Shown here piece after piece: positions 2,068 to 50,866 of a stretch of DNA of 64,000 nt; positions within the stretch are counted from its first letter, which is position 1, and each line of letters starts with the position of its first letter. The position numbers were made by a program, and so were the translations under genes. Under the pieces are notes generated by a model. The model had not been told where the DNA came from. It made no database searches and saw nothing but the letters and a program-made list of their open reading frames with translations. The DNA is from a virus: the IMG/VR virus record IMGVR_UViG_3300030041_000009, positions 1-64,000 of that record; one strand, 5' to 3'.

Positions 2068-2691
2068 ATGAAAATAAAATTTGAAGAATTTATATTAGAA
2101 TCAAAAAATTATAACCTTTATAAAGGAGTAGGTAATTTAAAACAAATTTTACTTGATGGTAAAATAAAATTACTAAAAGGTGAATGGGGTTATCAATGGA
2201 GTTCAGATATGAGAAGAAATTTAGGAATAAAAGATGAAGTTGGCATATCAGTAACTAGAAATTTTTCAACTGCTGTTGGTTATGGTGATGCTGTAATAGA
2301 ATTTGATACTCAAAAATTGAGTGATAAATATAAAATTATTCCAATAATAGAAAATTTAGACTATTATTTGAATTTACCAAAAGAAAAAACTAAAAAATTA
2401 TCAATATCAAAACAACTTAGATTAAAAGAATTTGGTAAAGAATATTGGAACATCAAAACAAATAAAGATGCATTCGATTTTGGTATTGCAGAAGAGATAA
2501 TAGTATCAAATGAAGTTTCAATAAAATATATAAAAAAAGTATATATTATTTATAGTAATAGAGATATAACAAAAAAAATTGAATTGCTAAAATTGAATAA
2601 TATTCCTTACGAAATAATATCAAAAGATGATAAATATTTATCTAACGTTAAATATAGAAAAAATAAGATTAATACTTATTCACAGATGTGA
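2068..2691 (+). CDS. Putative ADP-ribosyltransferase-like protein with capsid-targeting-like N-terminus
   Basis: 207 aa. The N-terminus MKIKFEEFILESKNYNLYKG has the pattern of a T4 capsid-targeting peptide, with a possible cleavage after FILE. The body then reads like a small mono-ADP-ribosyltransferase: NLYKGVG near residue 15, GISVTRNFSTAVGYGD near 65-80 (the serine/threonine strand), and FGIAEEIIV near 145-153 (the acidic catalytic segment). It is followed by a Lys-rich tail. T4 Alt is the known precedent: an ADP-ribosyltransferase packaged in the head and injected with the DNA. The ART assignment rests on motif order only; a KptA- or RES-type relative is also possible. The 3' end overlaps the convergent gene at 2669 by 23 bp. 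Confidence 0.45.
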   Translation: MKIKFEEFILESKNYNLYKGVGNLKQILLDGKIKLLKGEWGYQWSSDMRRNLGIKDEVGISVTRNFSTAVGYGDAVIEFDTQKLSDKYKIIPIIENLDYYLNLPKEKTKKLSISKQLRLKEFGKEYWNIKTNKDAFDFGIAEEIIVSNEVSIKYIKKVYIIYSNRDITKKIELLKLNNIPYEIISKDDKYLSNVKYRKNKINTYSQM

Positions 2692-2866
2692 TATTATTAT
2701 CTTTAAATTCTATTTCTAAATTATTTGAGAATATTTCTACAACCTCATCATCTTTCATATAAACATAATCTTCACTTGAAGGCAGCCAACCATTTAAAGA
2801 TTCATTTAATCTACAAGATTTTTTTAATCTTAATTGTAAAATTTCGTCCAATTCTTTAAATTTCAT
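2669..2866 (-). CDS. Small hypothetical protein, 65 aa
   Basis: Starts MKFKELDEILQLRLKKSCRL. The first half is helical and the second half is acidic, with a GWLPSSEDYVYM segment similar to the PSSE segment of the gene at 276. Function unknown. A TATCTTTG promoter lies 31 bp upstream. Its end overlaps the convergent gene at 2068-2691. Confidence 0.55.
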   Translation of the reverse strand: MKFKELDEILQLRLKKSCRLNESLNGWLPSSEDYVYMKDDEVVEIFSNNLEIEFKDNNITSVNKY

Positions 2867-2896
2867 ATCATTTATATTTATATAAGTTTATAAATA

Positions 2897-2904
2897 CAAA
2901 GATA
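2897..2904 (-). promoter_or_regulatory. Bacteroidota -7 promoter element TATCTTTG
   Basis: TATCTTTG on the minus strand, 31 bp upstream of the start at 2866. Confidence 0.6.
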
Positions 2905-3149
2905 CTACATTATTAATCATATGTCAATAATATAAAGTATATTTTCAATTATTTATATATTTTTAACTTATTATCATAATTTGCTGATTATAAGTACATT
3001 AAAATAAAAATAAACTAATTATTTAATTTTTACTATATAACAATGAGAATAATTTAATTTTAGTAATAAAGAATTACTATATAATAACATAACTAATAAT
3101 TATAAATCAAATTAGATAACCTAATTTTATAATTAATTGATGAATTAAT

Positions 3150-3188
3150 CCGCTGATTTTCTTACTGTAAATCCTATCTTATAAGCGG
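3150..3188 (+). promoter_or_regulatory. Structured leader hairpin upstream of the lysis gene
   Basis: The 2905-3261 gap has no gene that I can support. Within it, CCGCT at 3150-3154 pairs with AGCGG at 3184-3188, extended by one T-A pair. An inner GATTT/AAATC stem (3154-3173) sits inside. These are among the few GC-rich stretches in the region and lie about 75 bp before the glucosaminidase start, so a structured 5' leader is plausible. It could also be a remnant of a small RNA. Two copies of TACTATATAA(C/T)A occur further upstream (near 3030 and 3075). Confidence 0.35.
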
Positions 3189-3261
3189 AATTTATTACCA
3201 TTTGGATATATTTATTTTTATCCTATTTACTGATTCATCAATAAAAAAACAATTTAAAGAC

Positions 3262-3732
3262 ATGAGAAAAATTTTACTAGGCATAATAATGCTATTCGCT
3301 TTTAGTGTATATTCAAATACTCAAAACATTACAACAAGATTTATTGATAAATATAATGCATTAACTATATCATTAAGCAACGAATATAAAATCCCTGCTA
3401 GCGTAATTCTTTCAATTTCAATATGGGAAAGTGGTTCTGGAACAAGTAAATTGAGTAGAACTAAACATAATTATTTTGGAGTTAAACAAGGAAAACATTA
3501 TAGAAGTTATGAAAATGATTCTATATCATTTAGGCATTTTTGTGAGTTTACTTCAAAAAGAAAATATTATTCTAAATTAATAAATAATAATGTTACAGAT
3601 TATAATATATGGGTACATAACATTCAAAGAGGTGGATATTCGCAAACAAAAAATTGGGGTAAACATATCGTTGACATGATTAAAATATACAATTTAAATA
3701 AAATTGATAATCAATATGTTTTTATTGATTAA
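3262..3732 (+). CDS. Secreted glucosaminidase-type endolysin
   Basis: 156 aa from ATG 3262. The first 20 residues (MRKILLGIIMLFAFSVYSNT) form a clear Sec signal peptide; the longer ORF start at 3202 would bury this signal, so it is rejected. The body matches the FlgJ/LytG-type glucosaminidase family (peptidoglycan hydrolase): IPASVILSISIWESGSGTSKL carries the catalytic Glu, followed by HNYFGVKQGKHY, the Y-x-S-FRHFCEF segment and GGYSQTKNWGKHIVDMIKIY near the end. It would cut the glycan backbone of the host wall and probably acts in lysis after export through the Sec system. No holin is obvious next to it. Its 3' end overlaps the convergent small gene by 11 bp. Confidence 0.85.
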   Translation: MRKILLGIIMLFAFSVYSNTQNITTRFIDKYNALTISLSNEYKIPASVILSISIWESGSGTSKLSRTKHNYFGVKQGKHYRSYENDSISFRHFCEFTSKRKYYSKLINNNVTDYNIWVHNIQRGGYSQTKNWGKHIVDMIKIYNLNKIDNQYVFID

Positions 3733-3889
3733 TTTGAAAATTATTTAATTTATTGAGTTTTTCAATTCTATCATCTTTCAATTTTTTTCTTTCTGCTTCT
3801 CTATCATATTTATATGATAGTTTTGCGTTTGAAAAACTTGGATCTGCTACTAAATCATAAGTAAATAGTTTATTTAAAATTATTTTCAA
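3722..3889 (-). CDS. Short protein with a DLVADPSF segment
   Basis: 55 codons from TTG at 3889, overlapping the 3' end of the upstream gene by 20 bp; no in-frame ATG exists. The segment YDLVADPSFSNAKL resembles the V-x-DPSF-x-NA pattern often seen near the C-terminus of phage prohead proteases, so this may be a relic of such a gene (low confidence). It ends in RIEKLNKLNNFQINQ, the basic tail shared by many small proteins in this window. Confidence 0.4.
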   Translation of the reverse strand: MKIILNKLFTYDLVADPSFSNAKLSYKYDREAERKKLKDDRIEKLNKLNNFQINQ

Positions 3890-8659: not shown

Positions 8660-8728
8660 ATGAAATTATTTGATATTACAAAAAAATAATAAATATTTTT
8701 ATATATAGTAGAAATAAATATTTTAAAT

Positions 8729-9388
8729 ATGAGTAGAATTAATAAATTTGATGAGTTTGTAAATGAGTATAATTATAAATTTGATGATTCAGAATTTTAT
8801 GATTCAGAATTTGATGACCCTGAATTCTATGACCCTGATTATGATGACTCTGTATTTGATGACCCAACAATGGGTGGTTTAAGTATTGATACTTTACAAA
8901 TTGCCGCAGATAAATATAAAACAAAAGAAGAATTTATTAAAAATGATCCAAGAGCTTATGATATTGCTCTTAAAAGTAATTTATTAGATTACTTATTCAA
9001 TAAACAATCTAAACAAGTGCCAAAAGGATATTGGACAGAAGAAAACCTTCAAAAAGAAGCTGATAAATATGAATTACGAAATGATTTCAAAGATAATAAT
9101 GCTTCAGCATATAATATTGCTTGTGATAAAGACATATTAGATAAATTGTTTAACGATCATGAGAATCAAGGATATGCGGAAAAACATAATCCTAATAAAG
9201 TTTTTACGAAAAAACAATTACAAAATATAGTAAATAAATATAAAACACGAAGAGAATTTCAAAAAAATGATTCAGAAGCATATTCTAATGCTGTTAGAAA
9301 TAGTTTACTAGATGAATTGTTCAAAGATAAACCAAACCAAGGATATAAAGGAAATCAAAGACAAAATAATAAAAATGACATCAGATGA
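8729..9388 (+). CDS. Tagged protein with acidic pentapeptide repeats and three DNA-binding-type repeats
   Basis: 219 aa. The N-terminus MSRINKFDEFVNEYNYKFDD has a capsid-targeting-like form with a possible cut after FVNE. Next come about six copies of (D/Y)D(S/P)EF (residues 19-45). Three copies of a ~45-residue unit follow, of the type L-Q-x-E-A-x-K-Y-x-T-R-x-x-F with AY-x-x-A and LxDxLF and then NQGY. The same unit occurs seven times, beside a GIY-YIG domain, in the homing endonuclease at 14449. Here no nuclease is present. The simplest reading is an endonuclease DNA-binding array reused in a virion-internal protein. The stop codon lies in the terminator stem. Confidence 0.6.
   Translation: MSRINKFDEFVNEYNYKFDDSEFYDSEFDDPEFYDPDYDDSVFDDPTMGGLSIDTLQIAADKYKTKEEFIKNDPRAYDIALKSNLLDYLFNKQSKQVPKGYWTEENLQKEADKYELRNDFKDNNASAYNIACDKDILDKLFNDHENQGYAEKHNPNKVFTKKQLQNIVNKYKTRREFQKNDSEAYSNAVRNSLLDELFKDKPNQGYKGNQRQNNKNDIR
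8783..8865 (+). repeat. Tandem 15-bp coding repeat
   Basis: Five and a half imperfect 15-bp units of the type GATGATTCAGAATTT, encoding (D/Y)D(S/P)EF in the gene at 8729. Confidence 0.8.
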
Positions 9389-9522: not shown

Positions 9523-10455
9523 TTATTCATATTTTTGTTTAAAAATGAATTTTTTATGAATATAAAGAAGTAAATCTTTTATATTAATTGTATCTGATTT
9601 GTTATTTTTAAATTCATTTATAGATAAAATATCATCCAAAACTTTATATCCTTCTATTATATATTCATCAGATTTAGTAATAAAATATTTTTTCCAATTT
9701 TCAAAAAATATAAATATATCATTTTTATCTGCACATAAATTACCACCAAAATAATTTATAAAAATATTTACTTTATCTATAATATCTTGCTCATTAATTA
9801 ATTTATTATAATCAAATGATTTTAAAATATTAAAAGATTTATACATGTAAGAATCATGATATAACCTATATAATTCTTCTTTAGAACACTTACAATTTAT
9901 AAACATCTCCCATATCATAGTATTTCTAGCTATTAATTCGTGTTCTAATGATAAATAAATTAATTGTAAAAAATCTATAAAATATTTATTGCTTTCATTT
10001 TTAAGTAACTCAGTATAAAATAAAGAATTTGTGAATGATTTCATATCACTTTCTTCATTTATAGTGTAAACATCATAGATATGTCTTATTTCATGACTTA
10101 TAACTGAACATAATTTATCTACATTTAAATTTATATCATCAATTATAATTGGTATTATTGTTCTATCTTTTCCTGTTACTAAATCATTTATATTTACATT
10201 TGAATAGTAAATAATATCTTTATCCTCATATCTTATTTCAGAATTCAATTTGTTAAATTTAACATCTAATTCTATGATCAAATTACAAAATTCTAATGAA
10301 TTTAAATCTATATTTTTTTTAAATGATTTCGTTTGATTGCCTATAATTTGCCTTATTTCATTAAATAACTTTTTTAATTCATCTGGAATTTCTTTATTGA
10401 ATGATTCATATGTTTTTATGTATTTATTCCATAAATTTTTATTTAATATTTTCAT
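9523..10455 (-). CDS. HExxH metallopeptidase-like protein with tag-like N-terminus
   Basis: 310 aa. The start MKILNKNLWNKYIKTYESFN is a longer version of the shared N-terminal tag. The zinc site is SVISHEIRHIYDVY (HEIRH near residue 123). About 60 residues further on, LSLEHELIARNTM holds an acidic residue in a helix, consistent with a third ligand of a gluzincin-type site (inference). The remainder is helical. One of six HExxH proteins in this window, all likely related. The target is unknown; a host or virion protein is possible. Confidence 0.6.
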   Translation of the reverse strand: MKILNKNLWNKYIKTYESFNKEIPDELKKLFNEIRQIIGNQTKSFKKNIDLNSLEFCNLIIELDVKFNKLNSEIRYEDKDIIYYSNVNINDLVTGKDRTIIPIIIDDINLNVDKLCSVISHEIRHIYDVYTINEESDMKSFTNSLFYTELLKNESNKYFIDFLQLIYLSLEHELIARNTMIWEMFINCKCSKEELYRLYHDSYMYKSFNILKSFDYNKLINEQDIIDKVNIFINYFGGNLCADKNDIFIFFENWKKYFITKSDEYIIEGYKVLDDILSINEFKNNKSDTINIKDLLLYIHKKFIFKQKYE

Positions 10456-10537
10456 ATAAAGTTTTTATTTATATATAAAAAGATAATAAATCTAATATTA
10501 ATTTTTAATATATAAACGAAATAAAATTTTTAAAATT

Positions 10538-11452
10538 ATGAAATATGTAAAAACATTTGAATTATATCGTGACTATGATATAGATTCTGTTGGTAATCTT
10601 GCTGTTGGTAATCTTGGTGGCTATCCTAATAATAAAAAACAATTATTAGCTTATATAGAAGCTGGCGGCGATATTGATGTTATAGATAAAAATGGAAACA
10701 CTCCTTTAATTAGATCTGTTACAAATAGCAAGAGTGAACTGACAAATATTTTAATTAAAAGTGGAGCAGATTTAAATATTCAAAATAATAATGGAGAAAC
10801 AGCATTAATGAAAGCAACAAAAAATAGAGATGTCATGAGATACATTAGTTTATTGATAGATGCTGGTGCAGATTGGAATATAGAAAAATATGACAAATTT
10901 TTATCATCTGTAGAAAATCCTATCTCTTATAGAGACAAATTATTAGCTAATATTGATTTTTTTGAGATGTTAACACCAAAATATCAAGAATTAACAAAAG
11001 AAAAATATCCAGAAAAATATAACTATTATTTAAGTAAAAAAGAAAGTTCAAATTCAAATTCAAATTCAAATTCACAGAATAATAAAGGAGATACAGCATT
11101 AATTTATGCAGTGAAAGATAGAAACATTAAACGTGTAGAATCTTTAATAAAATCTGGTGCAAATTTGAATATACAGAATAATAAAGGTGAAACAGCATTA
11201 ATTATTGCTGCTCGTTATCTAAATATGAATATAATTTATAAATTGATAGAAGCTGGATCAGATTGGAATATAACTAAATATAAAGATAATACTATTCTTT
11301 CATTTAATTCTATTAATGGTGGTAAACCTTATACGCCGAGAGGTAAATTTTATGAAGAAAAAGATTTTTTTGAAATATTATCACCAAAATATCAAGAAAT
11401 ATTAAAAGAGAAATATCCAGAAAAATATGCTAAATATTTGGCAAAAAAATAA
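10538..11452 (+). CDS. Ankyrin-repeat protein made of an internal duplication
   Basis: 304 aa. Tag-like start MKYVKTFELYRDYDIDSVGN. Ankyrin repeats are clear: KNGNTPLIRSVTNSKSELTN, LIKSGADLNIQNNNGETALM, LIDAGADWNIEKYD, and again after residue 180. Each half ends with DFFE(M/I)L(T/S)PKYQE..KEKYPEKY, so the protein is a duplicated ankyrin-plus-tail module joined by a Ser-Asn run (residues 169-179). Ankyrins bind proteins; with the tag this could be an injected host-interaction factor. Faces away from the metallopeptidase at 9523. An AATTCA microsatellite at about 11045-11075 encodes the linker. Confidence 0.8.
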   Translation: MKYVKTFELYRDYDIDSVGNLAVGNLGGYPNNKKQLLAYIEAGGDIDVIDKNGNTPLIRSVTNSKSELTNILIKSGADLNIQNNNGETALMKATKNRDVMRYISLLIDAGADWNIEKYDKFLSSVENPISYRDKLLANIDFFEMLTPKYQELTKEKYPEKYNYYLSKKESSNSNSNSNSQNNKGDTALIYAVKDRNIKRVESLIKSGANLNIQNNKGETALIIAARYLNMNIIYKLIEAGSDWNITKYKDNTILSFNSINGGKPYTPRGKFYEEKDFFEILSPKYQEILKEKYPEKYAKYLAKK

Positions 11453-11470
11453 TATTCAAATTGAAAAATA

Positions 11471-11500
11471 AAAAAAGCCAGAACTAATCTGACTTTTTTA
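11471..11500. terminator. Hairpin terminator
   Basis: AAAAAAGCCAGA / TCTGACTTTTTT with one mismatch, after the ankyrin gene and before the convergent exported protein gene. Confidence 0.65.
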
Positions 11501-11530
11501 TTTAAAAAGATTAATATCATTTAATATCAT

Positions 11531-12094: not shown

Positions 12095-12152
12095 ATTTGT
12101 TAGACGATAACCTATACATCGTGAGGTTTTGGATTTTAAGATTTTTGAAAAA

Positions 12153-12160
12153 CAAATATA
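12153..12160 (-). promoter_or_regulatory. Bacteroidota -7 promoter element TATATTTG
   Basis: Minus-strand TATATTTG, 59 bp before the ATG at 12094. Confidence 0.45.
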
Positions 12161-12273
12161 CAAAAAAAGTTTGGATTAACCAAACTTTTTTAAATATTTT
12201 TAATAAATTACTATACTAAAAATTATAAATATTACAATCCATATACTATTATCTTCTCAATATTTTTAAAATT

Positions 12274-13116: not shown

Positions 13117-13236
13117 ATACTTATTCTATTTTTATTATATATTAAAGAATATATGTTATATTATTAAAAAATCAGAATAATTACTATTGATTTTTAATTT
13201 TACTAATTATTCTCAATACTAATATCTTCACAATAT

Positions 13237-13500
13237 TTATATCATTTCATATGTTTTTTGATACATATGTTCAATTTTATTAAGTTCTAATATATCATAA
13301 ATATCATCAGTTTCCATAGATATAAATGAAGTATCATCTTCATTTAATAATGATAATAATTTTTCAAATTTTATTTTGAAAAAATCACGAGTTTTTTCAT
13401 TAACATCTAAGACATCCCAATAAAAATCCCAAGTATCATTAGTTTTAACTAATGCAGAACAACAAAATTCAAATTCTTTTTTTAATTCTTTTTTATTCAT
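13237..13500 (-). CDS. Hypothetical acidic protein, 87 aa
   Basis: Starts MNKKELKKEFEFCCSALVKT. Acidic and helical with DDIYDILELNKIEHMYQKTY at the end. It overlaps the end of the upstream gene by 4 bp (ATGA), so the two are probably coupled. It could be a partner or inhibitor of the upstream protein, but nothing shows this directly. Confidence 0.55.
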   Translation of the reverse strand: MNKKELKKEFEFCCSALVKTNDTWDFYWDVLDVNEKTRDFFKIKFEKLLSLLNEDDTSFISMETDDIYDILELNKIEHMYQKTYEMI

Positions 13501-13958
13501 ATTTTTGTTTTTAATTCTATTATATTTTTTACATCAATAGTTTTTTGACCTGGTAATATTGTTATTATATTAATATTCAAATTATTAGAAATATTAACAA
13601 TTATAGTAAAATTATATTCTGAAAACCATAATGAGTATTTTCCATTATTCTTAATATAATCATAATTATTAATAAATAATTCATCTAATCCTTTACTAAT
13701 TAATGTATTTAATTCTGTTATATTTTTTAACGAAGTTCTTTCTTTAAATCTTTTTATTAAATCATGCTTAATTGTGTGATTCCAATTTATATTCAACCTA
13801 ATCTTTTTATTATCTATTCTTTTAGAGATAGTTTTATTTTTTATAAAATTATCTGTATTAATAATTTCTTGATCACTAAAAGTGACTCCAGTACCTTTAA
13901 TTATAGATATATCTGATAATCTTGCTTCATTAAATAATTTAAAATTTAATATCCTCAA
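13497..13958 (-). CDS. Tagged hypothetical protein, possible RNase-toxin-like
   Basis: 153 aa. The N-terminus MRILNFKLFNEARLSDISII has a tag with a near-ideal T4-type cleavage site (LFNE-A). The rest includes NHTIKHDLIKRFKERTSLKN and later YSLWFSEYNFTIIVNI with a terminal ITILPGQK. A His followed by an RF-x-ERT helix and beta strands recalls small RNase toxin folds, but this is weak. Coupled to the small acidic gene downstream. Confidence 0.5.
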   Translation of the reverse strand: MRILNFKLFNEARLSDISIIKGTGVTFSDQEIINTDNFIKNKTISKRIDNKKIRLNINWNHTIKHDLIKRFKERTSLKNITELNTLISKGLDELFINNYDYIKNNGKYSLWFSEYNFTIIVNISNNLNINIITILPGQKTIDVKNIIELKTKI

Positions 13959-22420: not shown

Positions 22421-22428
22421 AATACTGA

Positions 22429-23093: not shown

Positions 23094-23095
23094 AA

Positions 23096-23314: not shown

Positions 23315-23318
23315 TTTT

Positions 23319-23344
23319 ATTAGATTATTTTTTAATAATCTAAT
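23319..23344. terminator. Hairpin in the divergent intergenic region
   Basis: ATTAGATTATT / AATAATCTAAT arms around a T run, just upstream of the gene at 23096. No T run follows, so it could be a leader structure and not a terminator. The 23315-23539 gap holds this and the promoter at 23502. Confidence 0.35.
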
Positions 23345-23509: not shown

Positions 23510-23539
23510 ACAAAAATATTTAATAATACAAATTTTTAT

Positions 23540-26864: not shown

Positions 26865-27200
26865 TTATTTTATTGTTTTGTATTCTATATATTTTTTATA
26901 AAAAATGTCGTGATATATACTATTAAAATTTTTAGCAGATTTCATGTTTTGGGTTAAATGATTATCTGTTTCAGTTCTCAAATCATTTAACATTTTTATG
27001 CCTTGTTCATTCTTTCCATTTTTAAAATAATTATTAGCAGTTTCATCTAATAGTTTAGATTGTATATTAAGATAATTAACTAATTCAGTTTCAGCATTTT
27101 TATCTTGTGTTATTCCGTTTTCTGAATATCCAGCATAATCATCATCATTATTTTCGTTGTTTTCATTAACGAACATATCAAAAATCTTTAAGTGATTCAT
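26865..27200 (-). CDS. Tagged hypothetical protein, 111 aa
   Basis: Starts MNHLKIFDMFVNENNENNDD, a capsid-targeting-like form with possible cut after FVNE. The rest is helical (LDETANNYFKNGKNEQGIKM). An AT-rich late-type promoter box lies at about 27211-27240. Function unknown; likely virion-internal. Confidence 0.6.
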   Translation of the reverse strand: MNHLKIFDMFVNENNENNDDDYAGYSENGITQDKNAETELVNYLNIQSKLLDETANNYFKNGKNEQGIKMLNDLRTETDNHLTQNMKSAKNFNSIYHDIFYKKYIEYKTIK

Positions 27201-27231: not shown

Positions 27232-27498
27232 TTATTTTTTATTTGTTTTTTCTTCACCGCAAATATCAATTTTAATTTTTTCTAAATCTTTAGTTGCACC
27301 TTTTCCTTTTGTCCAATATTTGTTTACATTATCAAAAAATTCACTTTTCTTTTCATCTGATAATTTAGCAGGAGATTTAACATCATAACAATCAAGTATG
27401 AATTTAAAATATTCTCTATATTCTATTTGTAAATCTGATAATTTTTCATTTAATGATAAACTTTCATTATATTGTTTGAAATTTTTAATTTTATTCAT
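27232..27498 (-). CDS. Tagged hypothetical protein, 88 aa
   Basis: Starts MNKIKNFKQYNESLSLNEKL, with possible cleavage after QYNE or SLNE. The body LQIEYREYFKFILDCYDVKS to the end is helical and ends in Lys. Late-type box TTTAATATATATATAAAAAA upstream (27511-27530). Confidence 0.6.
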   Translation of the reverse strand: MNKIKNFKQYNESLSLNEKLSDLQIEYREYFKFILDCYDVKSPAKLSDEKKSEFFDNVNKYWTKGKGATKDLEKIKIDICGEEKTNKK

Positions 27499-29925: not shown

Positions 29926-30162
29926 TTAGTTTATTAAATCATTTGATGAAATAATTTCATTGAAATTCATTATTTTTCATTCATTTATATGAAGATTTTG
30001 AATACCTTTATCATATTCAAAGTCAGCAATGATACCTACATTATTATCTAAAAAATCAACAATAGATTCATATTTATTTTGTCTATCTTTGATGTCAATT
30101 ATAACATAATCACCAATTTTAAATTTAGTATTTATATTTTCAAAAAATCTAATATATTTCAT
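29926..30162 (-). pseudogene. Tagged small protein broken by an in-frame TGA
   Basis: The intact part is 30162 to the TGA at 29977 (61 aa): MKYIRFFENINTKFKIGDYV, then NNVGIIADFEYDKGIQNLHI. The frame then continues open for 16 codons, ending FNEIISSNDLIN and TAA at 29926. The continuation reads like the natural C-terminus, so the TGA is probably a mutation. The 61-aa product may still be made. Late-type box TTAATATATATAAA at 30175-30191 shared with the divergent gene. The gap 29780-29925 up to tnpB holds no other gene that I can see. Confidence 0.5.
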
Positions 30163-31150: not shown

Positions 31151-31876
31151 TTAATTTTTTTTATATTTATTTAATATAGATAATATTTGTTTATTATATT
31201 TATTAGAATAAAAATAATCATTTTTATTTACAATATCAAATACATTAAGTCCATCATCATTAGGTTCTGGTTTAAAATTATAGTCTTTAGCATATAAATT
31301 TGCACCTTTCTGTAAAAGTTCATCAATAATTTTCAATCTCATATCAACATTATGATTTTCACCAGAAAGTATATGATCTTTTCTTTTTAAATTTTCGACT
31401 GCTAGTATTAATGGAGTAGATCCATCTCTACTTATAGAATTAATATCAATATTAGGCTGTTCTAATAATAGTTCAAATACCTTAAATCCTTCTTCATTTA
31501 AACGTTTCTCATACACAATACTAGATAGTGGGCTAAAATTTGCATGTCCTTTTAAATTAATATCAGCTCCTTTATCAATTAAATACTTACATACATCATA
31601 ATTCTGATATGAACTTGATAAATTAAGTATATTATCACCAGCCAATTCAACATTTATTATTTCAGGATGCGCATCAATAAGACTTATAACATTATTTGTT
31701 TCTTTATTCATAAGATATGTTCTACACTCATAATAATAACTATGAATATTTTTTTCTAAATCTTTTTTCTGTTTTCTGCCGTCACTGTATTTCGTGAATG
31801 TTGATGTATAATCATCACCATAAAAATGTTCATCATTTGTAAATCCTTCAAATGATTTTAAATGTTTATTTTTCAT
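31151..31876 (-). CDS. Tagged ankyrin-repeat protein
   Basis: 241 aa. Starts MKNKHLKSFEGFTNDEHFYG. Ankyrin repeats from residue 65: LIDAHPEIINVELAGDNILN, CKYLIDKGADINLKGHANFS, FELLLEQPNIDINSISRDGS, LLQKGANLYAKDYNFKP. Likely a protein-interaction factor. Directly downstream of the 27-aa tag-only ORF and the gene at 31979. Related in type to the protein at 10538. Confidence 0.75.
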   Translation of the reverse strand: MKNKHLKSFEGFTNDEHFYGDDYTSTFTKYSDGRKQKKDLEKNIHSYYYECRTYLMNKETNNVISLIDAHPEIINVELAGDNILNLSSSYQNYDVCKYLIDKGADINLKGHANFSPLSSIVYEKRLNEEGFKVFELLLEQPNIDINSISRDGSTPLILAVENLKRKDHILSGENHNVDMRLKIIDELLQKGANLYAKDYNFKPEPNDDGLNVFDIVNKNDYFYSNKYNKQILSILNKYKKN

Positions 31877-31978: not shown

Positions 31979-32287
31979 TCAATTTTTATTTTTAATATAT
32001 TTATCATAAATAACTTCTGCAGTATATTCTTTTCTTTTATCTTTAAGATTATTAATTTCTTTTATTATTTCTGGATTATTATCAAAAATATTTCTAATAA
32101 ATAATACAGCGTCATCTGATTGCTTAAATGATTTTTCACTTATATTGTGTTCATTACAATATATGTAGTCAATATGATCAAATACATCATCAACATAATT
32201 TCTTATAGGTACTTTCCATCCAAATGAATTTATTTCATGATCTGGATTTTTATTGTACATCTCTGTTATTAATTTTATGTGATTCAT
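31979..32287 (-). CDS. Tagged hypothetical protein, 102 aa
   Basis: Starts MNHIKLITEMYNKNPDHEIN; LITEMY recalls the N-terminus of T4 Alt as I remember it (LITELF). Rest is acidic and aromatic (DDVFDHIDYIYCNEHN) with a charged helix. Late-type boxes in the duplicated region just upstream. Confidence 0.6.
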   Translation of the reverse strand: MNHIKLITEMYNKNPDHEINSFGWKVPIRNYVDDVFDHIDYIYCNEHNISEKSFKQSDDAVLFIRNIFDNNPEIIKEINNLKDKRKEYTAEVIYDKYIKNKN

Positions 32288-34276: not shown

Positions 34277-34774
34277 TTATTTTTTCTTTGATAGTAAAGA
34301 TGTTATATCATTAATAAATTTCTCAGAATTTTTTGGATTCATATTTTCAATTATAGTAAAATTTTGATTCCCTTTAATTTTTATTCCTTCTGTAATTTTT
34401 CTTAATTCAGGTTTTGTTGAATAATATTTTAATAAAGTATTGACGAATTCATTAATATTCATTTTTAATTTTTCATTATATTTAACAATATGTAATTGAT
34501 TATCTTTTTTTCTAATAAAGTAATCAGTATCTGAATATTTATTTTTTATAGTTTCTAATATATCAGTTATATGTCCGCTATTAAATTTTATAATTTTTTC
34601 CTCTAATATTTCAATACTCAACATAGAGTCATCTTTAGGAGCTAGTAAAACTTCTTCTTTTATAGGTTTAATAACCTTTTCAATAGTTTCATCTACTGCA
34701 TTATTTGATGAAATATTATCAGATTCTATTTTTGTATCAATTATATTAAAATCTGTATATTTTTTAATAGGCAT
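34277..34774 (-). CDS. Hypothetical protein paralogous to the gene at 48550
   Basis: 165 aa. Starts MPIKKYTDFNIIDTKIESDN, tag-like. The C-terminal 100 residues (LHIVKYNEKLKMNINEFVNT, LLKYYSTKPELRK, IKIKGNQNFTII) align with LQCIKYNNKMGVNLTLLIEG, MKNYYEKDENIQK, LKIEGNDKFSII in the gene at 48550. Unknown function. Late-type box at 34791-34804. Confidence 0.6.
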   Translation of the reverse strand: MPIKKYTDFNIIDTKIESDNISSNNAVDETIEKVIKPIKEEVLLAPKDDSMLSIEILEEKIIKFNSGHITDILETIKNKYSDTDYFIRKKDNQLHIVKYNEKLKMNINEFVNTLLKYYSTKPELRKITEGIKIKGNQNFTIIENMNPKNSEKFINDITSLLSKKK

Positions 34775-41357: not shown

Positions 41358-41445
41358 AATTTGAGCAAGTGGTCTGATTTGAACAGAATCCTTTAACTGG
41401 AAGCTAAACGCATTAACATATGCTACCACTGCATTTTAATAATAT
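41358..41445 (-). repeat. 88-bp direct repeat, copy 1
   Basis: Identical over 88 bp to 43271-43358. The two copies flank two metallopeptidase genes. Each copy contains a tRNA-like sequence and the AT-rich flank AAAATGC. Confidence 0.9.
41364..41432 (-). tRNA. tRNA-Gly(UCC)-like sequence, copy 1
   Basis: On the minus strand: acceptor GCAGTGG pairs with CCAC-T-TGC (one bulged T), then TA, D arm GCAT/ATGC with a short loop, anticodon arm TTTAG-CTTCCAG-TTAAA (anticodon TCC), and T arm TCTG-TTCAAAT-CAGA. The D loop lacks the usual GG and the acceptor has a bulge. An alternative D arm ATGC-AGTGGTA-GCAT looks more Gly-like but leaves no acceptor. It could be a real phage tRNA or a decayed one. No CCA is encoded. 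Confidence 0.5.
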
Positions 41446-42293
41446 CTATATTTTTCATTCATATTTCCTTGATCCTTAATAACTTCATTAATTATAGATA
41501 ATAACTTTTTTTTATTTTTAATACATTTATTTTTAAATATATTTTCCCATTTTTTAAAATAATCTATTAATGGTAAATTTGAATCTATAAAATCTAAATT
41601 GTAATTATTTTTAATAATTTGTTCATTTAAATGATTAATTAAAACTATTAACGCTGGCTCTGATATTTTTTCTAACATATAATTATAAAATTTTTCAGCA
41701 TTAAAACTATCCAATTCTTCATATTTTTTCCATGATTCACATTCTTTAATTTTTTCTAATAAAATATTTTTATCTATGCTATTAAATTTCATTAAAAAAT
41801 GATACGCTTCTGAAACTCTAGCGTTTAATTCATTATCCAAAGATAAATAAATAAAATATGTAAAATCATTTAAAGGTGTCTCGATTTTGTTAAAATTTGT
41901 TATAATTTTTTGTAAATTAACATGAGTAGGTAAATCTCTTTGATTCTTAACCAAATTATAAAATTCTAAAACATGAGTCAATTCATGAGATATTTTACTT
42001 TTTATGATGTAATCATCAGTTCCAATAGGAACAAAAAAGTATAAATTTATATTTTTTAATATATTATTTGAAAAAGTATAATTTATAGGATCAAATTTAG
42101 CATAACAATCTAATCTTTTTTCAAAATTAATAGTCAATTTAATATTATATAAAGGAAATAAAATATCTTTTAAATCTAAAAAAATAATCTTATCTTCATA
42201 GTCTAAAAAATTAGTATAAATAATATCAGAATATGTTTTAATAATGTTAGAAATACCATTACCTTCATTGATAAAATTTAAATACTTTTTCAT
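41436..42293 (-). CDS. Tagged HExxH metallopeptidase-like protein
   Basis: 285 aa. Starts MKKYLNFINEGNGISNIIKT with a near-ideal cleavage site (FINE-G). Zinc site KISHELTHVLEFY (HELTH near residue 103), then LSLDNELNARVSEAYHFL, which may supply the Glu ligand. Best relative in the window is the gene at 48949. Its ATG overlaps the end of the upstream metallopeptidase gene by 4 bp, so they are coupled. Confidence 0.65.
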   Translation of the reverse strand: MKKYLNFINEGNGISNIIKTYSDIIYTNFLDYEDKIIFLDLKDILFPLYNIKLTINFEKRLDCYAKFDPINYTFSNNILKNINLYFFVPIGTDDYIIKSKISHELTHVLEFYNLVKNQRDLPTHVNLQKIITNFNKIETPLNDFTYFIYLSLDNELNARVSEAYHFLMKFNSIDKNILLEKIKECESWKKYEELDSFNAEKFYNYMLEKISEPALIVLINHLNEQIIKNNYNLDFIDSNLPLIDYFKKWENIFKNKCIKNKKKLLSIINEVIKDQGNMNEKYRYY

Positions 42294-43379: not shown

Positions 43380-43706
43380 TTATAAATTAAATTTTTTAAT
43401 ATCATATTTTATTTGTATTTCTGGATCTAATTTTACATCATTTAAAACCTTAGCAGTATCTAAATAAATTTTTTTATCTAAATCACATACATTAAAATTC
43501 TCAATTAATGTATCAATATCAAAAATATCTTCAATTTCATAATCTATATCATTGTCTTTATATTCATTGCAAATATGATTTATAGTAAAATTATTTCTGC
43601 TTAATTTATCATCAAATGAATACATATCATTTATACCACAATCTGATATAGTACAAAGATAAATTATTGTTCCAGTATTATTTTCAAATAATTTTAAATG
43701 CTTCAT
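43380..43706 (-). CDS. Tagged hypothetical protein, 108 aa
   Basis: Starts MKHLKLFENNTGTIIYLCTI; the first eight residues are the shortest tag form (LFE). Acidic body with DIDTLIENFNVCDLDKKIYL. It lies 2 bp after the endonuclease gene. Function unknown. Confidence 0.6.
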   Translation of the reverse strand: MKHLKLFENNTGTIIYLCTISDCGINDMYSFDDKLSRNNFTINHICNEYKDNDIDYEIEDIFDIDTLIENFNVCDLDKKIYLDTAKVLNDVKLDPEIQIKYDIKKFNL

Positions 43707-43707: not shown

Positions 43708-45309
43708 TTATTTTTTTAAAGTATATATAAATTTTAAAAATCCAGAATCATATATGCGATATACCTTCCGTTCTAACATAATTTCATGCTCTGTTTTATT
43801 TATATCAAATCCTTCTGTTACTAATTTATTTTTACGAAAATTACATTTATTATGCCTAATATTATCAATAATATATTGATAATCTGGCTTAACTTTATCG
43901 ACAAAATCAAATCCTATTTTTTTATATAAATTAATTTGACTAAAACTTCTATCAAAATAACATACTATTTCTTTCGCACTATATTTATTTATAAAATAAT
44001 TTAATAACGTAATTTCACTATCAATAATATTAGTATTTATTTTATTACTAAAACTTATCATCTCATAATTATTATTCTTAATATTAAATGTCATTAAACT
44101 AATTAATTCATTACCTAAATATAAACCAATTTTTATATTAGATTTAATATATCCATGTATATCATTTTTTTCTAAATAACTTTTAATTAAATTTATATCT
44201 AAAACTTCTCTTATTTCACAATCTTTTGAATCAATTACGTTTTCAAAAATATTTAATTTACTTAATATTATAGATTTTATAATTTCATTATTATAAATCC
44301 AGTCATCTTCATAAATATGAATCAATTGAATGCCTTGTTTTTCACATTCTTCAGTTTTATTTAAATGATAATCTTTATCTTTATTTAATTCATTGTGCCA
44401 CCATAAACCATTAAATTCAAATGCTAATTTCAAATTAGGTAAATAAATATCTAATTCTAAAGGATTTAAAATTTTTCTATCATTCAAAATTATCTCATCA
44501 TTATAATTTTCTTTAATAAAACCTAATAATTGTAACTCTAACCCACTAACATTTTTTGAAATTGGATTGCATTCTGTACATAATATTGTTTTATTATTTA
44601 TCCTATTCCACAATAATTTATAATCAATATTAAAATGATGATCTTTATGTAAATCACATTTAAATTCATATTGACCATTTGATAAATATCCAACAAATAT
44701 ATCTTTTCTATCTCTAATAATTTCAGATTTATATAATCCTTTATCAAAATTTTTCTTAAAACTAATAAATTGATTTTCTCTCATTTTAATAGATATTTCT
44801 GCATTTTGACTAGCATATTCTACTCCATATCTTTCTAAATTCGTTGATTTCATTTTATATGGATTTGTATAGTTAGCATCTCCATATTTTTCTAATTTAC
44901 TTACATGTCCTTTTTTGTTAATTTCTTTAGATTGCTGAGGATATTCGACACCAAAATTTTTTAAACAAGTTTCTACTTTTTTATCTTTAATAATTTGAGA
45001 ATTTGAAACATTTTCTACTCCATATTTTTCTAAATTTGTATTTTTTGATTTTTGTTCAGAACATTTTCTACTACAAGCATAATATGTTGTTGAATTTTTT
45101 GTGTTATAATTATATCTACTATATGAAATAATAGTTTCTTCGCCACAAACATCACATTTTGCTTTAATTTTTGATACACTTCTTGTAGGTAAATCTATTG
45201 CAAGTATAGAAATAATTTCATTTCCTCCTTTTACTTCATACCCTTTTTCTTTATAATATTTAATTTGATTATTAGATATTTTTACATCGACATACTTTGT
45301 CAAAATCAT
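43708..45309 (-). CDS. EDxHD-type homing endonuclease
   Basis: 533 aa. N-terminal Cys region (AKCDVCGEETII, YYACSRKCSEQK), then four YG-V-E-type repeats (LEKYGVENVSNS, LKNFGVEYPQQS, LEKYGDANYTNP, LERYGVEYASQN), as in DNA-binding NUMOD-like motifs. The nuclease part follows: LQLLGFIKENYNDEIILNDR, LELDIYLPNLKLAFEFNGLW, then WHNE, HLNKTEECEKQGIQLIHIYE and DDW: the EDxHD fold known from phage homing enzymes. It sits right after the truncated polymerase gene. Confidence 0.8.
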   Translation of the reverse strand: MILTKYVDVKISNNQIKYYKEKGYEVKGGNEIISILAIDLPTRSVSKIKAKCDVCGEETIISYSRYNYNTKNSTTYYACSRKCSEQKSKNTNLEKYGVENVSNSQIIKDKKVETCLKNFGVEYPQQSKEINKKGHVSKLEKYGDANYTNPYKMKSTNLERYGVEYASQNAEISIKMRENQFISFKKNFDKGLYKSEIIRDRKDIFVGYLSNGQYEFKCDLHKDHHFNIDYKLLWNRINNKTILCTECNPISKNVSGLELQLLGFIKENYNDEIILNDRKILNPLELDIYLPNLKLAFEFNGLWWHNELNKDKDYHLNKTEECEKQGIQLIHIYEDDWIYNNEIIKSIILSKLNIFENVIDSKDCEIREVLDINLIKSYLEKNDIHGYIKSNIKIGLYLGNELISLMTFNIKNNNYEMISFSNKINTNIIDSEITLLNYFINKYSAKEIVCYFDRSFSQINLYKKIGFDFVDKVKPDYQYIIDNIRHNKCNFRKNKLVTEGFDINKTEHEIMLERKVYRIYDSGFLKFIYTLKK

Positions 45310-45371
45310 AACATTTTTTATTTTATATATAAAAATAAAAATATAAAAAAATTATATTTTTATTTATTATT

Positions 45372-46856
45372 TCATAAAGGAGTTCCCTCTAATTTTTTAA
45401 GCTCATTTTGTAATTTATCAAGTTCTTCATGTTTTTCCATCATCACGTTTTTCCACTTTTTTCTATCAGAATATACTTCTCTCATTACACTACTAACAAC
45501 TCCTTCCTCATTCTTAAATACTGATCCATTTAAAGTTATGATATCATCAGGCTCAATTGTTAATTGATGTCCATTAAATATGGAATAATCTTTACCTTTT
45601 ACTTTTTGACCTTTATATGAATCTGCAGATATGTTAAATTCTCTCATAGTAGTAGGATACAAGGAACTAAAGTCAAAACAGCATGTCCATTCTGCCATAC
45701 CTCTTACAGGTTCTTTAACCCATCCTCCTTTTATAGATTCAGTTTCAGTATCTCCGTATTCACTATCTTCATTTCTAACAAGAACAATATTTTTTTGATC
45801 TCTTAATTTTTCTCTTAAAATTCCTTCTGTTAATGCAAGAGTTGAAATTGCATCTTTAATCTTAATTTTACCCAATACAGCCATGCCATAAAGTATGTCT
45901 ACATATTTCATTTTTTTATGTATCTGTTGAACTAAGCAACTATCTACAGCATTATAGAATACAAATTTCTTATAGTCCTCTTTATGCAATTTTTTTAAAT
46001 CTCCATCGTAATTAATTTTCTTAATTTCTTTTCCTAGTAATTTTTCAGAAGCGAAATCTAAAGATAAACTTTCCTTTACTTTAACTGATTGATCCCATTT
46101 TTTAAATAATTCCATATAATCAACTATAACCCTATGCGCTGGCATTTCTGCGTAACTTGGATTAATAGCATTAGGAGGATTAAATGGTTTATTAAGTTTT
46201 TTTGTGAATGAGGCAACCTCAGGTTCAAGTCCAATTCTTCTTGCTCTTGCAACTAAATATGTCCAGTCATAATTAATGAAATTCCAACCAGTTATTACTG
46301 GCATTTTAGGAACTAATTTGTTAAAAAAACTATGAAGCATATCATATTCAGTTTTGTACTGAACATATTTAAATTTATAATTTGTTCCAAATTTTTGAAA
46401 ATGAGTATTGATATCATTACCAATTGATTCAATTTGTGCAGCATCTAAAAACTGAGTTCCAATTACCAACACTTTATCTTTATTTACTATTGATATTGTT
46501 TGTATCTCACCCTCAGCAAGTTGTGGTTGTGGTTTACCAGTATTAAGAATCTCGTTCTCAATATCAACGAAGAATATATCTGGTTCTGCATATGAATATA
46601 TTTCATCTCGTTCTTCTTTATCAAAACTATCTATGAAATCATAAATGGAATACCGATTTGGGTATTTTGTATAAATCTCTTTAACATTTTCTCCTGACCA
46701 TGTGACAAATCTACCACTTTTTTCTTTATCATCATCAGTAGTTTTTATAAATTTTGTTGGGCGACTCCAATTTTTATATTTTAGTTTGATCTGACCAGAA
46801 CTATCTATATATGAGATAATTAGGTTATTATTTTTATATTCAGTATCTACAATCAT
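45372..46856 (-). CDS. DNA polymerase B, N-terminal fragment (exonuclease to motif A)
   Basis: 494 aa. The exonuclease motifs are present: DIFFVDIENEI (Exo I), ITGWNFINYDWTYLVARA (Exo II) and YNAVDSCLVQQIHKKM (Exo III region). Motif A follows as FDFSSLYPTTMREFNI near 397-412. The protein then ends after DRKKWKNVMMEKHEELDKLQ. Motif B (K-x3-N-S-x-Y-G) and motif C (D-T-D-S), which should follow, are missing, and no ORF in this window carries them. T4-like phages with split gene 43 are known, also with an endonuclease between the halves. The second half must be outside this window if the enzyme works. Confidence 0.85.
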   Translation of the reverse strand: MIVDTEYKNNNLIISYIDSSGQIKLKYKNWSRPTKFIKTTDDDKEKSGRFVTWSGENVKEIYTKYPNRYSIYDFIDSFDKEERDEIYSYAEPDIFFVDIENEILNTGKPQPQLAEGEIQTISIVNKDKVLVIGTQFLDAAQIESIGNDINTHFQKFGTNYKFKYVQYKTEYDMLHSFFNKLVPKMPVITGWNFINYDWTYLVARARRIGLEPEVASFTKKLNKPFNPPNAINPSYAEMPAHRVIVDYMELFKKWDQSVKVKESLSLDFASEKLLGKEIKKINYDGDLKKLHKEDYKKFVFYNAVDSCLVQQIHKKMKYVDILYGMAVLGKIKIKDAISTLALTEGILREKLRDQKNIVLVRNEDSEYGDTETESIKGGWVKEPVRGMAEWTCCFDFSSLYPTTMREFNISADSYKGQKVKGKDYSIFNGHQLTIEPDDIITLNGSVFKNEEGVVSSVMREVYSDRKKWKNVMMEKHEELDKLQNELKKLEGTPL

Positions 46857-48492: not shown

Positions 48493-48549
48493 TTATAAAA
48501 TTGAATCTTTTAATATTAATATATAAAAGTATAAAAATTTAAATTAAAA

Positions 48550-48936
48550 ATGGAAGATAAAGATAAAAAACTAGAATTTATCGGTAAAGTGGTTAAAATG
48601 CCAAAAAACACTAAAGCAAAAAATGCATACAATTTTTTAGAAAACATAAAAGTTTCAAAAAGTAAATTGTGGTATATTCTTATTGAAAAAGATGAGAATA
48701 AGTTACAATGTATTAAATATAATAATAAAATGGGTGTTAATTTAACTTTATTAATAGAAGGAATGAAGAATTATTATGAAAAGGATGAGAACATTCAGAA
48801 ATATATTAATGAGCTTAAAATTGAAGGTAATGATAAATTTAGTATAATTACAGCTATTCCTGATGTAGAAATTTTACCAGGTAAAAAAATGATAACGTTT
48901 TTAACAGAGAATTTAATACAGTTATTATATAAATAA
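48550..48936 (+). CDS. Hypothetical protein, paralogue of the gene at 34277
   Basis: 128 aa. Starts MEDKDKKLEFIGKVVKMPKN; LQCIKYNNKMGVNLTLLIEG and LKIEGNDKFSII align with the C-terminal domain at 34277. It lacks the long N-terminal part. Unknown function. Confidence 0.6.
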   Translation: MEDKDKKLEFIGKVVKMPKNTKAKNAYNFLENIKVSKSKLWYILIEKDENKLQCIKYNNKMGVNLTLLIEGMKNYYEKDENIQKYINELKIEGNDKFSIITAIPDVEILPGKKMITFLTENLIQLLYK

Positions 48937-48948
48937 AAAATTAAATAT

Positions 48949-49893
48949 ATGATAAATAATTACGATGAATATATATTAGAAAATAGAGGAATATCAAATA
49001 TTATAAAACAATATACAGATATAATATTTATAGAAATTAAAAAAAATATAGAAGATAATATTTCAGATGAAATAATATTAGATTTAGATGCTCAGAATGA
49101 TTTTATTTTAAAAAATATGTTAATTGATTATAAATTATCTAATAGAAATTATGGATTATTTGATTCATCTCATATTATATTTAAAGATGATATATTATAT
49201 AATGTTATAATTAGAATTGAAATAGATCAAAATAAATTCAACGACGTAAAAATAAAGGAAATAATAACTCACGAATTGACTCACATTTTAGAATATTTTA
49301 GAATAAAACAAAATGATGTAAAATTAAATTTAAATATTAACGTTGATCCGAACTATATTTCAGTTCGTAAATCTATAAACTATATTAATTTTGATAATGA
49401 GTGGAATAGTTTTAAAACTCTGATTTATTTATCTTTAGATACTGAATATAACGCAAGGATTGCACAACTTTATCAATTTTTAATAGATTTTAATTCAAAA
49501 GATAGTGATTTTTTAATGAATAAATTTTTAAATAGTGAAACTTATAAATGTTACAGTTATTTAGATGAATTTAATGCAGAACTATTTTTGATAAAATTAA
49601 AAATGAATATTGGAGAAAATACATTAATATCGGAAATTAATAGATTGAATCAGGAATTAATAAATAGTGGTGTAAACAAACTTAATGGTTATAAATTTAT
49701 AAAAATTGTTGATATAGATAATGTTGAAGCATATTTAAACAATTGGAAAAATTTATTTAAGAATAAAAATAAAAAACACATAAAAAAAATAAATTTGATT
49801 ATCAAAGAAGTTATATCCGATGTTAAAGATAATAAAAAATGGTGTGATAATTTTGAAATTGATGAGAGTTATAAAAATAGATTATTAGAATAA
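48949..49893 (+). CDS. Tagged HExxH metallopeptidase-like protein
   Basis: 314 aa. Starts MINNYDEYILENRGISNIIK, with a tag and possible cut after YILE. Zinc site IITHELTHILEYFRI (HELTH near residue 106). LSLDTEYNARIAQLYQFL as candidate ligand segment, matching LSLDNELNARVSEAYHFL at 41436, so the two are close relatives on opposite strands. Confidence 0.65.
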   Translation: MINNYDEYILENRGISNIIKQYTDIIFIEIKKNIEDNISDEIILDLDAQNDFILKNMLIDYKLSNRNYGLFDSSHIIFKDDILYNVIIRIEIDQNKFNDVKIKEIITHELTHILEYFRIKQNDVKLNLNINVDPNYISVRKSINYINFDNEWNSFKTLIYLSLDTEYNARIAQLYQFLIDFNSKDSDFLMNKFLNSETYKCYSYLDEFNAELFLIKLKMNIGENTLISEINRLNQELINSGVNKLNGYKFIKIVDIDNVEAYLNNWKNLFKNKNKKHIKKINLIIKEVISDVKDNKKWCDNFEIDESYKNRLLE

Positions 49894-49933
49894 ATTATAT
49901 AATTAAAAAATAAATTGAATTATAAATAAAATA

Positions 49934-50866
49934 ATGATAATAAAAAATAAAATATTTAATTTAATAGTAGAGAAAGTTGGAATTGAGTTGGATATTAAAG
50001 ATTTAAGTGATCAAATTTATAAATTGATTATAAATGATAAAAAATTATATTATAAATTTGATGGTAAGTTATTTGATGTTAGAATTATGCACATTAATTC
50101 AATACTGATATTTATATCAAACAATGATTCTTCATTTGATGCATCATCTTCAACATTAACTGAAAAAGGATTTGATATTATATTGAATATAAATAAGAAT
50201 GATATAGAAACTAAAGTTATACATCACGAATTAAATCATGCTTTAAAATTTTATATGATAGGTAAAGAAAAATATATAGATAAAACTCGTGAATTAAAAA
50301 GTTATAAAATGAGTAGAACTTTTATTAAAAACCCAGATATTGAAGATTTTATAGATTTGGTTTATTATTCTGATTTAGAAGAAGTTGATTCTTTCATTAG
50401 TGAAGCATATTATGAAATTATGGAAAATTTTAAAAAAATTGGTAGAGTTATAACTAATATAGAATTTAATAAATATTTTAATTCATTTCACAAAGATACT
50501 TACATATATAAAATGTCTGATGTATTATATAATTATAATTTTAAAATATTAAAAAAATATAATTCTGATATGCTGGTTGTATTTTTTAATGTTTTAAATG
50601 ATAAAAAAAATTTATTAATAATATCAAAAAAAAGTGGAAAATTTAAAAAATTTTTATTGAATATTATAAATTTATTTAATGATAAATATTATATGAGTTG
50701 GTATTATAGTAGAATAGATAAAAACATTAAAATTGAGAATTTAGATGAGATATTAGAAATATATGATAAAAGATTTAAAAGTGCATCAAAAACTATTAAA
50801 AATAAATTATCTAAATTATATAGTTTAATCTTGGAAGAATTAAAGAATGAAAATTTAATAAAATAA
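49934..50866 (+). CDS. HExxH metallopeptidase-like protein
   Basis: 310 aa. Starts MIIKNKIFNLIVEKVGIELD; the FNLIVE segment resembles the tag cleavage region. Zinc site VIHHELNHALKFYMI (HELNH near residue 97). YSDLEEVDSFISEAYYEI may provide the third ligand. Its last 105 residues are shared with the chimera at 47278. Confidence 0.65.
   Translation: MIIKNKIFNLIVEKVGIELDIKDLSDQIYKLIINDKKLYYKFDGKLFDVRIMHINSILIFISNNDSSFDASSSTLTEKGFDIILNINKNDIETKVIHHELNHALKFYMIGKEKYIDKTRELKSYKMSRTFIKNPDIEDFIDLVYYSDLEEVDSFISEAYYEIMENFKKIGRVITNIEFNKYFNSFHKDTYIYKMSDVLYNYNFKILKKYNSDMLVVFFNVLNDKKNLLIISKKSGKFKKFLLNIINLFNDKYYMSWYYSRIDKNIKIENLDEILEIYDKRFKSASKTIKNKLSKLYSLILEELKNENLIK

Follow-up and report, generated by a model that had tools for sequence, protein, structure and literature searches.

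Introduction

The closest described counterparts of the proteins considered here are the internal proteins I–III (IPI–III) and Alt of bacteriophage T4, which are cut by the protease gp21 and carry a 10–14 residue N-terminal leader on differing, variable bodies. We analysed a leader of this kind on numerous proteins encoded by the virus record IMGVR_UViG_3300030041_000009, whose first 64,000 nucleotides (the window) are the first part of a record of 256,033 bases. In T4, the internal proteins start with MKTYQEFIAE (II and III) or MKTFKEF (I) (NC_000866). Mutagenesis of the IPIII leader assigned targeting mainly to residues 4 and 7 and processing to residues 8 and 10, with cleavage after L/I-x-E (PMC9026906). 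In T-even phages, the leader served to identify many internal-protein genes, and Ip1–3 differ in the GmrSD restriction enzymes that they block (PMC12373910). From the T4 capsid protein, 65 residues are removed (PMC9026906); this propeptide ends with FGSFLTE, which corresponds to the leader core described below (NC_000866).

Two further systems are similar in part. The head protease of the giant phages phiKZ and SPN3US likewise removes N-terminal propeptides of inner head proteins after Glu, but these propeptides are mostly longer than 100 residues and the site is S/A-x-E in phiKZ (PMC5694885, PMC9026906). Long propeptides of this type were not seen in our record, where the shared sequence stops within about 14 residues. 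In phage P1, a short N-terminal stretch suffices to load the anti-restriction protein DarB into the head, but that work found no consensus among Dar N-termini (PMC9024508). The leader pattern of our record is real, several related phages carry it too, and the leaders are likely to be capsid-targeting sequences of the T4 type that direct proteins to the head, a judgement that includes the case of targeted proteins without an injected function.

A common leader at the N-termini of many proteins

A preliminary description of the window had proposed a common capsid-targeting-like start for a set of proteins, and all 13 N-termini named there were found at the claimed places. The leaders are about 8–14 residues long, with the core aromatic-x-x-aromatic-hydrophobic-x-Glu. 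In the following list, genes are named by their lower coordinate, the residue behind a hyphen is the first one after the leader, bits are scores of a leader hidden Markov model (HMM), and the late-type motif is TTAATATATA or TTTATATATA, which mostly lies 24–35 bases upstream of those leader genes that bear it.

2068..2691, +: leader MKIKFEEFILE-S, 207 aa; 12.7 bits; unmatched in Pfam, PHROGs and NCBIfam; late-type motif at -15, host-type motif at -34; ortholog retains FEEFILE
8698..8707, +: late-type promoter motif TTTATATATA, 31 nt upstream of the 8729 start
8729..9388, +: leader MSRINKFDEFVNE-Y, followed by an acidic linker and a repeat region; 15.0 bits
9523..10455, -: leader-like MKILNKNLWNKYIKTYESF, absent from the earlier list; 13.9 bits; shares a BLASTP cluster with the HExxH paralogs
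10538..11452, +: leader MKYVKTFELY, ankyrin repeats (Ank_2, 5.8e-25); 7.6 bits
12274..13116, -: HExxH paralog (alignment A3), shortened leader MLNE-G with the leader Glu kept; just 1.0 bits; late-type motif at -29
13497..13958, -: leader MRILNFKLFNE-A, TTG start; 6.2 bits; late-type motif at -24
26865..27200, -: leader MNHLKIFDMFVNE-N; 14.4 bits; late-type motif at -34
27232..27498, -: leader MNKIKNFKQYNE-S; 11.7 bits; late-type motif at -31; ortholog retains FKQYNES
29977..30162, -: leader MKYIRFFE-N, short type; 5.1 bits; late-type motif at -30
31151..31876, -: leader MKNKHLKSFEGF, ankyrin repeat body (Ank, 2e-10); 16.9 bits; no motif of its own, late via operon
31979..32287, -: leader MNHIKLITEMYN; 6.3 bits; late-type motif at -27
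34277..34774, -: leader-like MPIKKYTDF, absent from the earlier list; 9.4 bits; late-type motif at -30
41436..42293, -: leader MKKYLNFINE-G, HExxH paralog (SHELTHVLE; A3); 9.4 bits
42290..43264, -: leader MDYLNNYNTYLLE-R, diverged HExxH paralog (LHECLH; A3); 7.8 bits; a longer GTG frame exists, the leader starting at an internal ATG at base 43264
43380..43706, -: leader MKHLKLFE-N; 7.7 bits; late-type motif at -25
48949..49893, +: leader MINNYDEYILE-N, HExxH paralog (A3); 7.0 bits

The HMM was trained on 26 seeds chosen by eye from the related phage genomes LR756501 and LR756502, without sequences from the present record, and N-termini were compared with internal 20-residue segments at a threshold of 8 bits. 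The scan covered the initial 123.6 kb of the record, where 22 of 182 N-termini but only 15 of 1485 internal segments reached the threshold, and the N-terminal enrichment for which the preliminary description had suggested a test was confirmed. The window contributed 8/101 N-termini versus 9/776 internal segments (p = 2.4e-4) and the region from 63.8 to 123.6 kb 14/81 versus 6/709 (p = 1.1e-10). The 13 named proteins score unequally, with six at or above 8 bits, 12 at or above 6 bits and 29977 at 5.1 bits. Their list was genuine throughout but incomplete, as 9523, 34277 and 14 genes at 74.5–114.7 kb also score at least 8 bits.

With regular expressions, enrichment depended on how strictly the core was written. 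The strict core [FYHW]xx[FY][ILVM]xE, sought in the first 16 residues, occurred in 6/101 protein N-termini of the window versus 5/1027 internal stretches (p = 1.4e-4), whereas a looser pattern was not enriched, a result to which we return below. In related loci other than the training loci, part of which are close kin of the training genomes, 94/1275 N-termini versus 88/15905 internal segments scored at least 8 bits (p = 1.6e-57), and the strict core, which is independent of the HMM, was found in 21/1204 N-termini versus 84/17347 internal stretches of related loci (p = 3e-6). Position by position, aromatic pairs at N-termini in our record were followed by Glu at +3 in 11/38 cases (37/485 internally, p = 2e-4), by Glu at +2 in 10/38 (36/485) and by a hydrophobic residue at +1 in 17/38 (102/485). 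The preference for Glu at +3 was weaker in related loci (42/308 versus 381/4100, p = 0.016).

These positions link the leader to T4, since residues 4, 7, 8 and 10 of MKTYQEFIAE are Y, F, I and E and coincide with the four positions that are fixed in the core, although the equivalent residues are present in our leaders as a group and not in each one. The profile built from the relatives ranks IPI, IPIII and IPII first, third and fifth among 45 T4 proteins encoded at 60–90 kb. The leader is also frequent in LR756502 (400–450 kb), where 13/65 N-termini versus 1/575 internal segments reach 8 bits. At the same threshold it was found at none of the N-termini scanned in crAss001 (0/42, 0/607 internally), phage G (0/68, 3/599 internally) and Lak-B1 (0/68, 5/464 internally, with one core in the polyprotein); Lak-B1 is an imperfect control because gene calling used the standard code although TAG codons occur in its protease frame. 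Chryseobacterium phage MA9V-2 is available in culture; of its 51 scanned proteins, the two with the best leaders have FINEA at the leader end, and both lie in the head cluster. One of them, MKTFTYFINEA, is encoded between a gene annotated as 'capsid assembly protein', which was taken as the portal gene, and the protease gene, which is the place of gp67/gp68 in T4.

Bodies behind the leader

In BLASTP comparisons, the 39 leader proteins of the first 123.6 kb (34 with at least 6 bits and five lower-scoring ones added by hand) fell into 31 body clusters, and 128 leader proteins of relatives into 65. On the basis of this clustering, a single common ancestor of the bodies was rejected. The 13 named proteins had been described as unrelated, which holds for most of them, as they form 11 clusters, but 41436, 42290 and 48949 are paralogs and cluster with 12274 and 9523. 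When 50 of the 65 cluster representatives from relatives were aligned, the consensus MKxxKxFExF at the start was followed by lone consensus positions only. The leader part of this consensus is expected from selection of the representatives by the HMM, and the telling part is that no further shared string appeared.

The functions proposed for the bodies fared differently. Ankyrin repeats were confirmed by the Pfam matches of 10538 and 31151 listed above, and these two were also the only ones among ten proteins submitted to PADLOC that gave a match. HExxH peptidases had been suggested as well; the motif exists in one paralog family (12274, 41436, 42290 and 48949, all four with the HExxH letters in alignment A3), but no family or structure match accompanied it. 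The AlphaFold model of this family reached a pLDDT of 59 and had no fold match in the PDB at E ≤0.001, and a PDB sequence search with A3 gave nothing. The leader Glu is invariant across these paralogs, including 12274 with its leader cut down to MLNE.

The proposed ADP-ribosyltransferase-like (ART-like) enzyme, 2068, gained no support from Pfam, PHROGs or NCBIfam, and its weak PDB sequence matches included no ART. We therefore regard this assignment as unsupported; the best PDB sequence match was GldN (E = 0.11), a phage collection contained no match, and the AlphaFold model had a pLDDT of 47. Residues 53–201 of 8729 match phrog_20046 (9.3e-27), the repeats of which are also present in proteins of other phages, and four relatives of 8729 carry the repeats without a leader. 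Most of the scanned bodies matched no Pfam model. Further leader proteins match leucine-rich repeats (LRR) and an ExoX C-terminal model, and one relative encodes a leader protein with a SET domain:

L021:3299-3742 (LR756502): SET-domain protein with leader (SET, 2.3e-11)

It is a candidate injected methyltransferase. A nicotinamidase-like and a kinase-like appearance of the relatives' leader proteins L021:2650 and L043:8941 were not confirmed.

Head protease and repeat scaffold

The search for a prohead protease succeeded in relatives, which encode an enzyme of the T4 family, whereas the record itself holds only a C-terminal fragment:

3788..3886, -: fragment from the C-terminal end of an S77 prohead protease, E = 5.7e-8 to positions 139–171 of the 204-position alignment A1 of five relatives' proteases

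This fragment lies in a frame of 53–57 residues (3722-3889, -) from which the invariant His/Ser stretch is absent. The same C-terminal fragment is shared by five of six related records, and other parts of the protease were not found there. The T4 gp21 motifs GELNHP and VSSRGLG correspond to GEFDHP and VSSRAAG in the related loci L015–L017, and the motif His and one Ser, which we take to be catalytic, are invariant in all five sequences of A1. The S77 family model scored T4, Lak-B1, LR756500 and MA9V-2 above its curated cut-off, the matches of LR756501, LR756502 and LR745206 (E = 7.5e-6 to 1.1e-4) remained under it, and proteins of the loci L048 and L031 match the PHROG head maturation protease (1.3e-33 and 5.1e-33).

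In relatives of this phage the protease is fused to a scaffold in one polyprotein, which can repeat the leader core. Strict cores number 15 in L048, 13 in L031, 14 in LR756501 and 12 in LR756502, and 10 or 11 of the core-to-core gaps in each of these Mahaphage-type polyproteins measure exactly 14 residues. A slightly looser core matched 9–16 times in each of the 34 polyproteins inspected (34/34, from 80 loci), and 71 related open reading frames contain 891 strict cores. In LR756502, the gene before the polyprotein matches portal proteins and the gene after it major head proteins (PHROGs). LR756501 contains a second, stand-alone S77-like match (9886-13287, L018; E = 1.1e-5, below the cut-off), which is located away from the head cluster.

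Among 17 loci, L048 is nearest to our record in tetranucleotide usage (r = 0.88), and the same sample prefix includes a polymerase that is 100% identical to the one of our record. For these two reasons, the L048 contig is likely to be the head cluster of this phage population, although the tetranucleotide method is weakened by L031, which reaches only r = 0.60 despite lying on a contig with a 77% identical polymerase. A polymerase was found in seven of 20 contigs searched, and one relative has the polymerase (77% identical) and the protease on one contig.

Promoter motifs

The late-type motif precedes several large structural-looking genes in addition to leader genes. Within 40 bases upstream it was present in 9/22 leader genes with at least 8 bits versus 29/160 other genes (p = 0.02). 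When assignments were carried along operons, the 22 leader genes comprised 20 late, no host-type and two unassigned genes, compared to 69, 37 and 54 among the others (p = 8e-4), and 13/13 named leader genes were assigned to the late-type motif. As the motif was picked by eye with both groups in view, these assignments are at most supporting evidence for a putative late expression of the leader genes.

Discussion

Our best reading is a much enlarged capsid-targeting system of the T4 type, in which the leaders resemble single scaffold repeats. The preliminary description had proposed T4-like capsid targeting, and this part is supported by the ranking of the T4 internal proteins, the T4-family protease with core-repeating scaffold in relatives, the late-type motifs and the leader-free controls. 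The T4-like leader itself stood, but the protease in the record is just a fragment. Tagged proteins would be made late in infection alongside the head proteins. The leader, as one unit with two spaced aromatics, would then join the prohead core by virtue of its likeness to the repeated 14-residue unit of the scaffold. The protease at the front of the polyprotein would cut scaffold and leader after hydrophobic-x-Glu, and the cargo freed within the head would enter the next host together with the DNA. We infer packaging, cutting after Glu and injection, and likewise binding of the leader to the core and a set of head genes in this phage similar to that of its relatives.

Compared to T4, the system shares the leader on variable bodies, the core of IPII and IPIII, the gp21-family protease (here in relatives) and a late-type promoter motif. 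It differs in that 22 of 182 examined proteins score at least 8 bits, whereas three internal proteins and Alt are tagged in T4, and in the fusion of scaffold and protease into one polyprotein with tandem core repeats in the relatives. The phages concerned are, in addition, huge and have predicted Bacteroidetes hosts.

Several observations weigh against this reading. The looser regular expression was not enriched in the window (17/101 N-termini versus 144/1027 internal stretches, p = 0.26), and the T4 internal proteins all remain below 8 bits with the relatives' profile (0/45 T4 N-termini versus 2/365 internal segments at this threshold). The Glu site is short or displaced in many leaders (e.g. 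MKYIRFFE and MKHLKLFE), which makes it uncertain whether all leaders are cut. LR756500 has the protease, yet only two cores and no leader enrichment (1/49 versus 5/701). Enrichment is weak in MA9V-2 (1/51 versus 1/675 at 8 bits, p = 0.14; 3/51 versus 6/675 at 6 bits, p = 0.02), and the strict core is absent from the MA9V-2 polyprotein and from T4 gp22, which implies that such leaders need no repeat scaffold; the MA9V-2 polyprotein contains many INES or LNEA sites. No terminase, portal, capsid protein or intact protease was found in the 256-kb record, the capsid and portal searches being without a positive control. PF03420, PF07068, PF03237 and PF07230 had no match in the record, and only PF03237 matched in control genomes; the PF03420 search was repeated with T4 as positive control. 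The repeat loci were chosen by their likeness to a few relatives and not randomly (the best 80 of at least 584). Finally, leader genes were among those from which the late motif was picked by eye; the promoter test therefore lacks independence, and 2068 also bears a host-type motif.

Alternatively, the leaders may bring proteins into the head via the scaffold while the cargo is structural or morphogenetic, for instance core fillers, head-size determinants or DNA-condensing proteins, rather than injected effectors. We consider this less likely than not. T4 IPIII is thought to act in head assembly (PMC9026906), the position of the MA9V-2 leader gene at the gp67/gp68 place fits such cargo, and few of the scanned bodies have an enzyme match. 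Against it stand the existence of ankyrin, SET and LRR bodies and the number and variability of the bodies, with 31 clusters for 39 leader proteins and 65 for 128 in relatives. Gene turnover points in the same direction: a relative with an 83% identical polymerase has orthologs for only 4/15 leader genes of the window (the 13 named genes, 9523 and 34277) versus 45/71 other genes (p = 0.02), though late non-leader genes vary too (7/16 with an ortholog, p = 0.46). In that relative, 9/100 N-termini versus 11/751 internal segments score at least 8 bits, and five of the nine leader bodies are unmatched in the first 123.6 kb of our record; one of the nine matches is probably false because it is the ortholog of the non-leader gene 5982.

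It is unlikely that the leader directs proteins to another destination, e.g. the inner membrane or a compartment in which the phage replicates, and that its likeness to the scaffold reflects a shared amphipathic helix. This explanation could account for the rarity with which the leader HMM scores scaffold repeats (1/105 internal matches of at least 8 bits lies in a protease-scaffold protein), a shortfall putatively caused by a different spacing of the first hydrophobic residue in the repeats. It fits poorly with a core that is common to the leaders, the scaffold repeats, the cut site of the T4 capsid protein and T4 IPII/IPIII, and with the late-type promoter motifs before leader genes. Least credible of these explanations is that the leader is a general N-terminal trait of Lys/Phe-rich, AT-rich phage genes (start context or an amphipathic helix) without any targeting, since, even though the window has about 77% A+T, Met-Lys starts and Phe are common and internal segments often score 2–4 bits (272/776 with at least 2 bits), the leader is at 8 bits absent or nearly so from internal segments of the same proteins, from crAss001 and phage G, with their 66–70% A+T, and from Lak-B1, and the enriched positions include those important in T4.

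We give an even chance to a wider picture for Mahaphage-type phages, in which the 14-residue scaffold unit would serve as a loading code, repeated in the polyprotein and carried as one copy by dozens of swappable effectors, which would together form a modular and fast-changing injected arsenal. The 22 leaders in 123.6 kb extrapolate to the order of 100 per 600-kb genome. In a limited literature search, none of the papers listed described such leaders or a Mahaphage repeat scaffold in its title or the beginning of its abstract. For the largest known phages, most genes lack an assigned function; should the leader serve as a tag for head loading, sequence alone would suffice to list the cargo that this clade may inject, and these candidates could be tested against host defences. 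Such a tag would also provide a simple physical idea of loading, in which the cargo copies the scaffold repeat and the protease fused to the scaffold releases it.

Record, relatives and other features

The window has a G+C content of 18–30% per 4-kb stretch, with a mean of about 23%. Its relationship to huge phages is evident from the polymerase:

45372-46856, -: DNA polymerase protein, 54.6% identity to the 735,411-base uncultured phage LR756501

Next closest are the polymerases of phages of 634–642 kb, with 41–43% identity. The protein encoded in the polymerase region (43708-46856, -) spans just about the first 500 of the 856 positions of phrog_262 and adjoins a homing-endonuclease-like gene, and we therefore regard the gene as probably split. 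In MA9V-2, a TnpB gene separates two polymerase genes.

Shine-Dalgarno-like sites, judged by eye, precede few starts in the record, and TAnnTTTG motifs, which we take to be of the Bacteroidetes promoter type, lie within 75 bases upstream of 21/182 genes. Both features are compatible with a Bacteroidetes-type host. Al-Shayeb et al. assigned all their largest genomes to the Mahaphage clade and predicted Bacteroidetes hosts for the five genomes above 634 kb (PMC7162821).

Two other features of the record were noted. A DnaK-like chaperone gene, recognised by its N-terminal sequence alone, is located at 15784-17655 (-). At 20063-25563 of the window and at 104–123 kb of the record, many small genes share, by eye, a Lys/Leu-rich C-terminal tail of approximately RKxKLxKLN; the A-rich DNA encoding such tails directly precedes the next start codon and may double as ribosome entry for the following gene.

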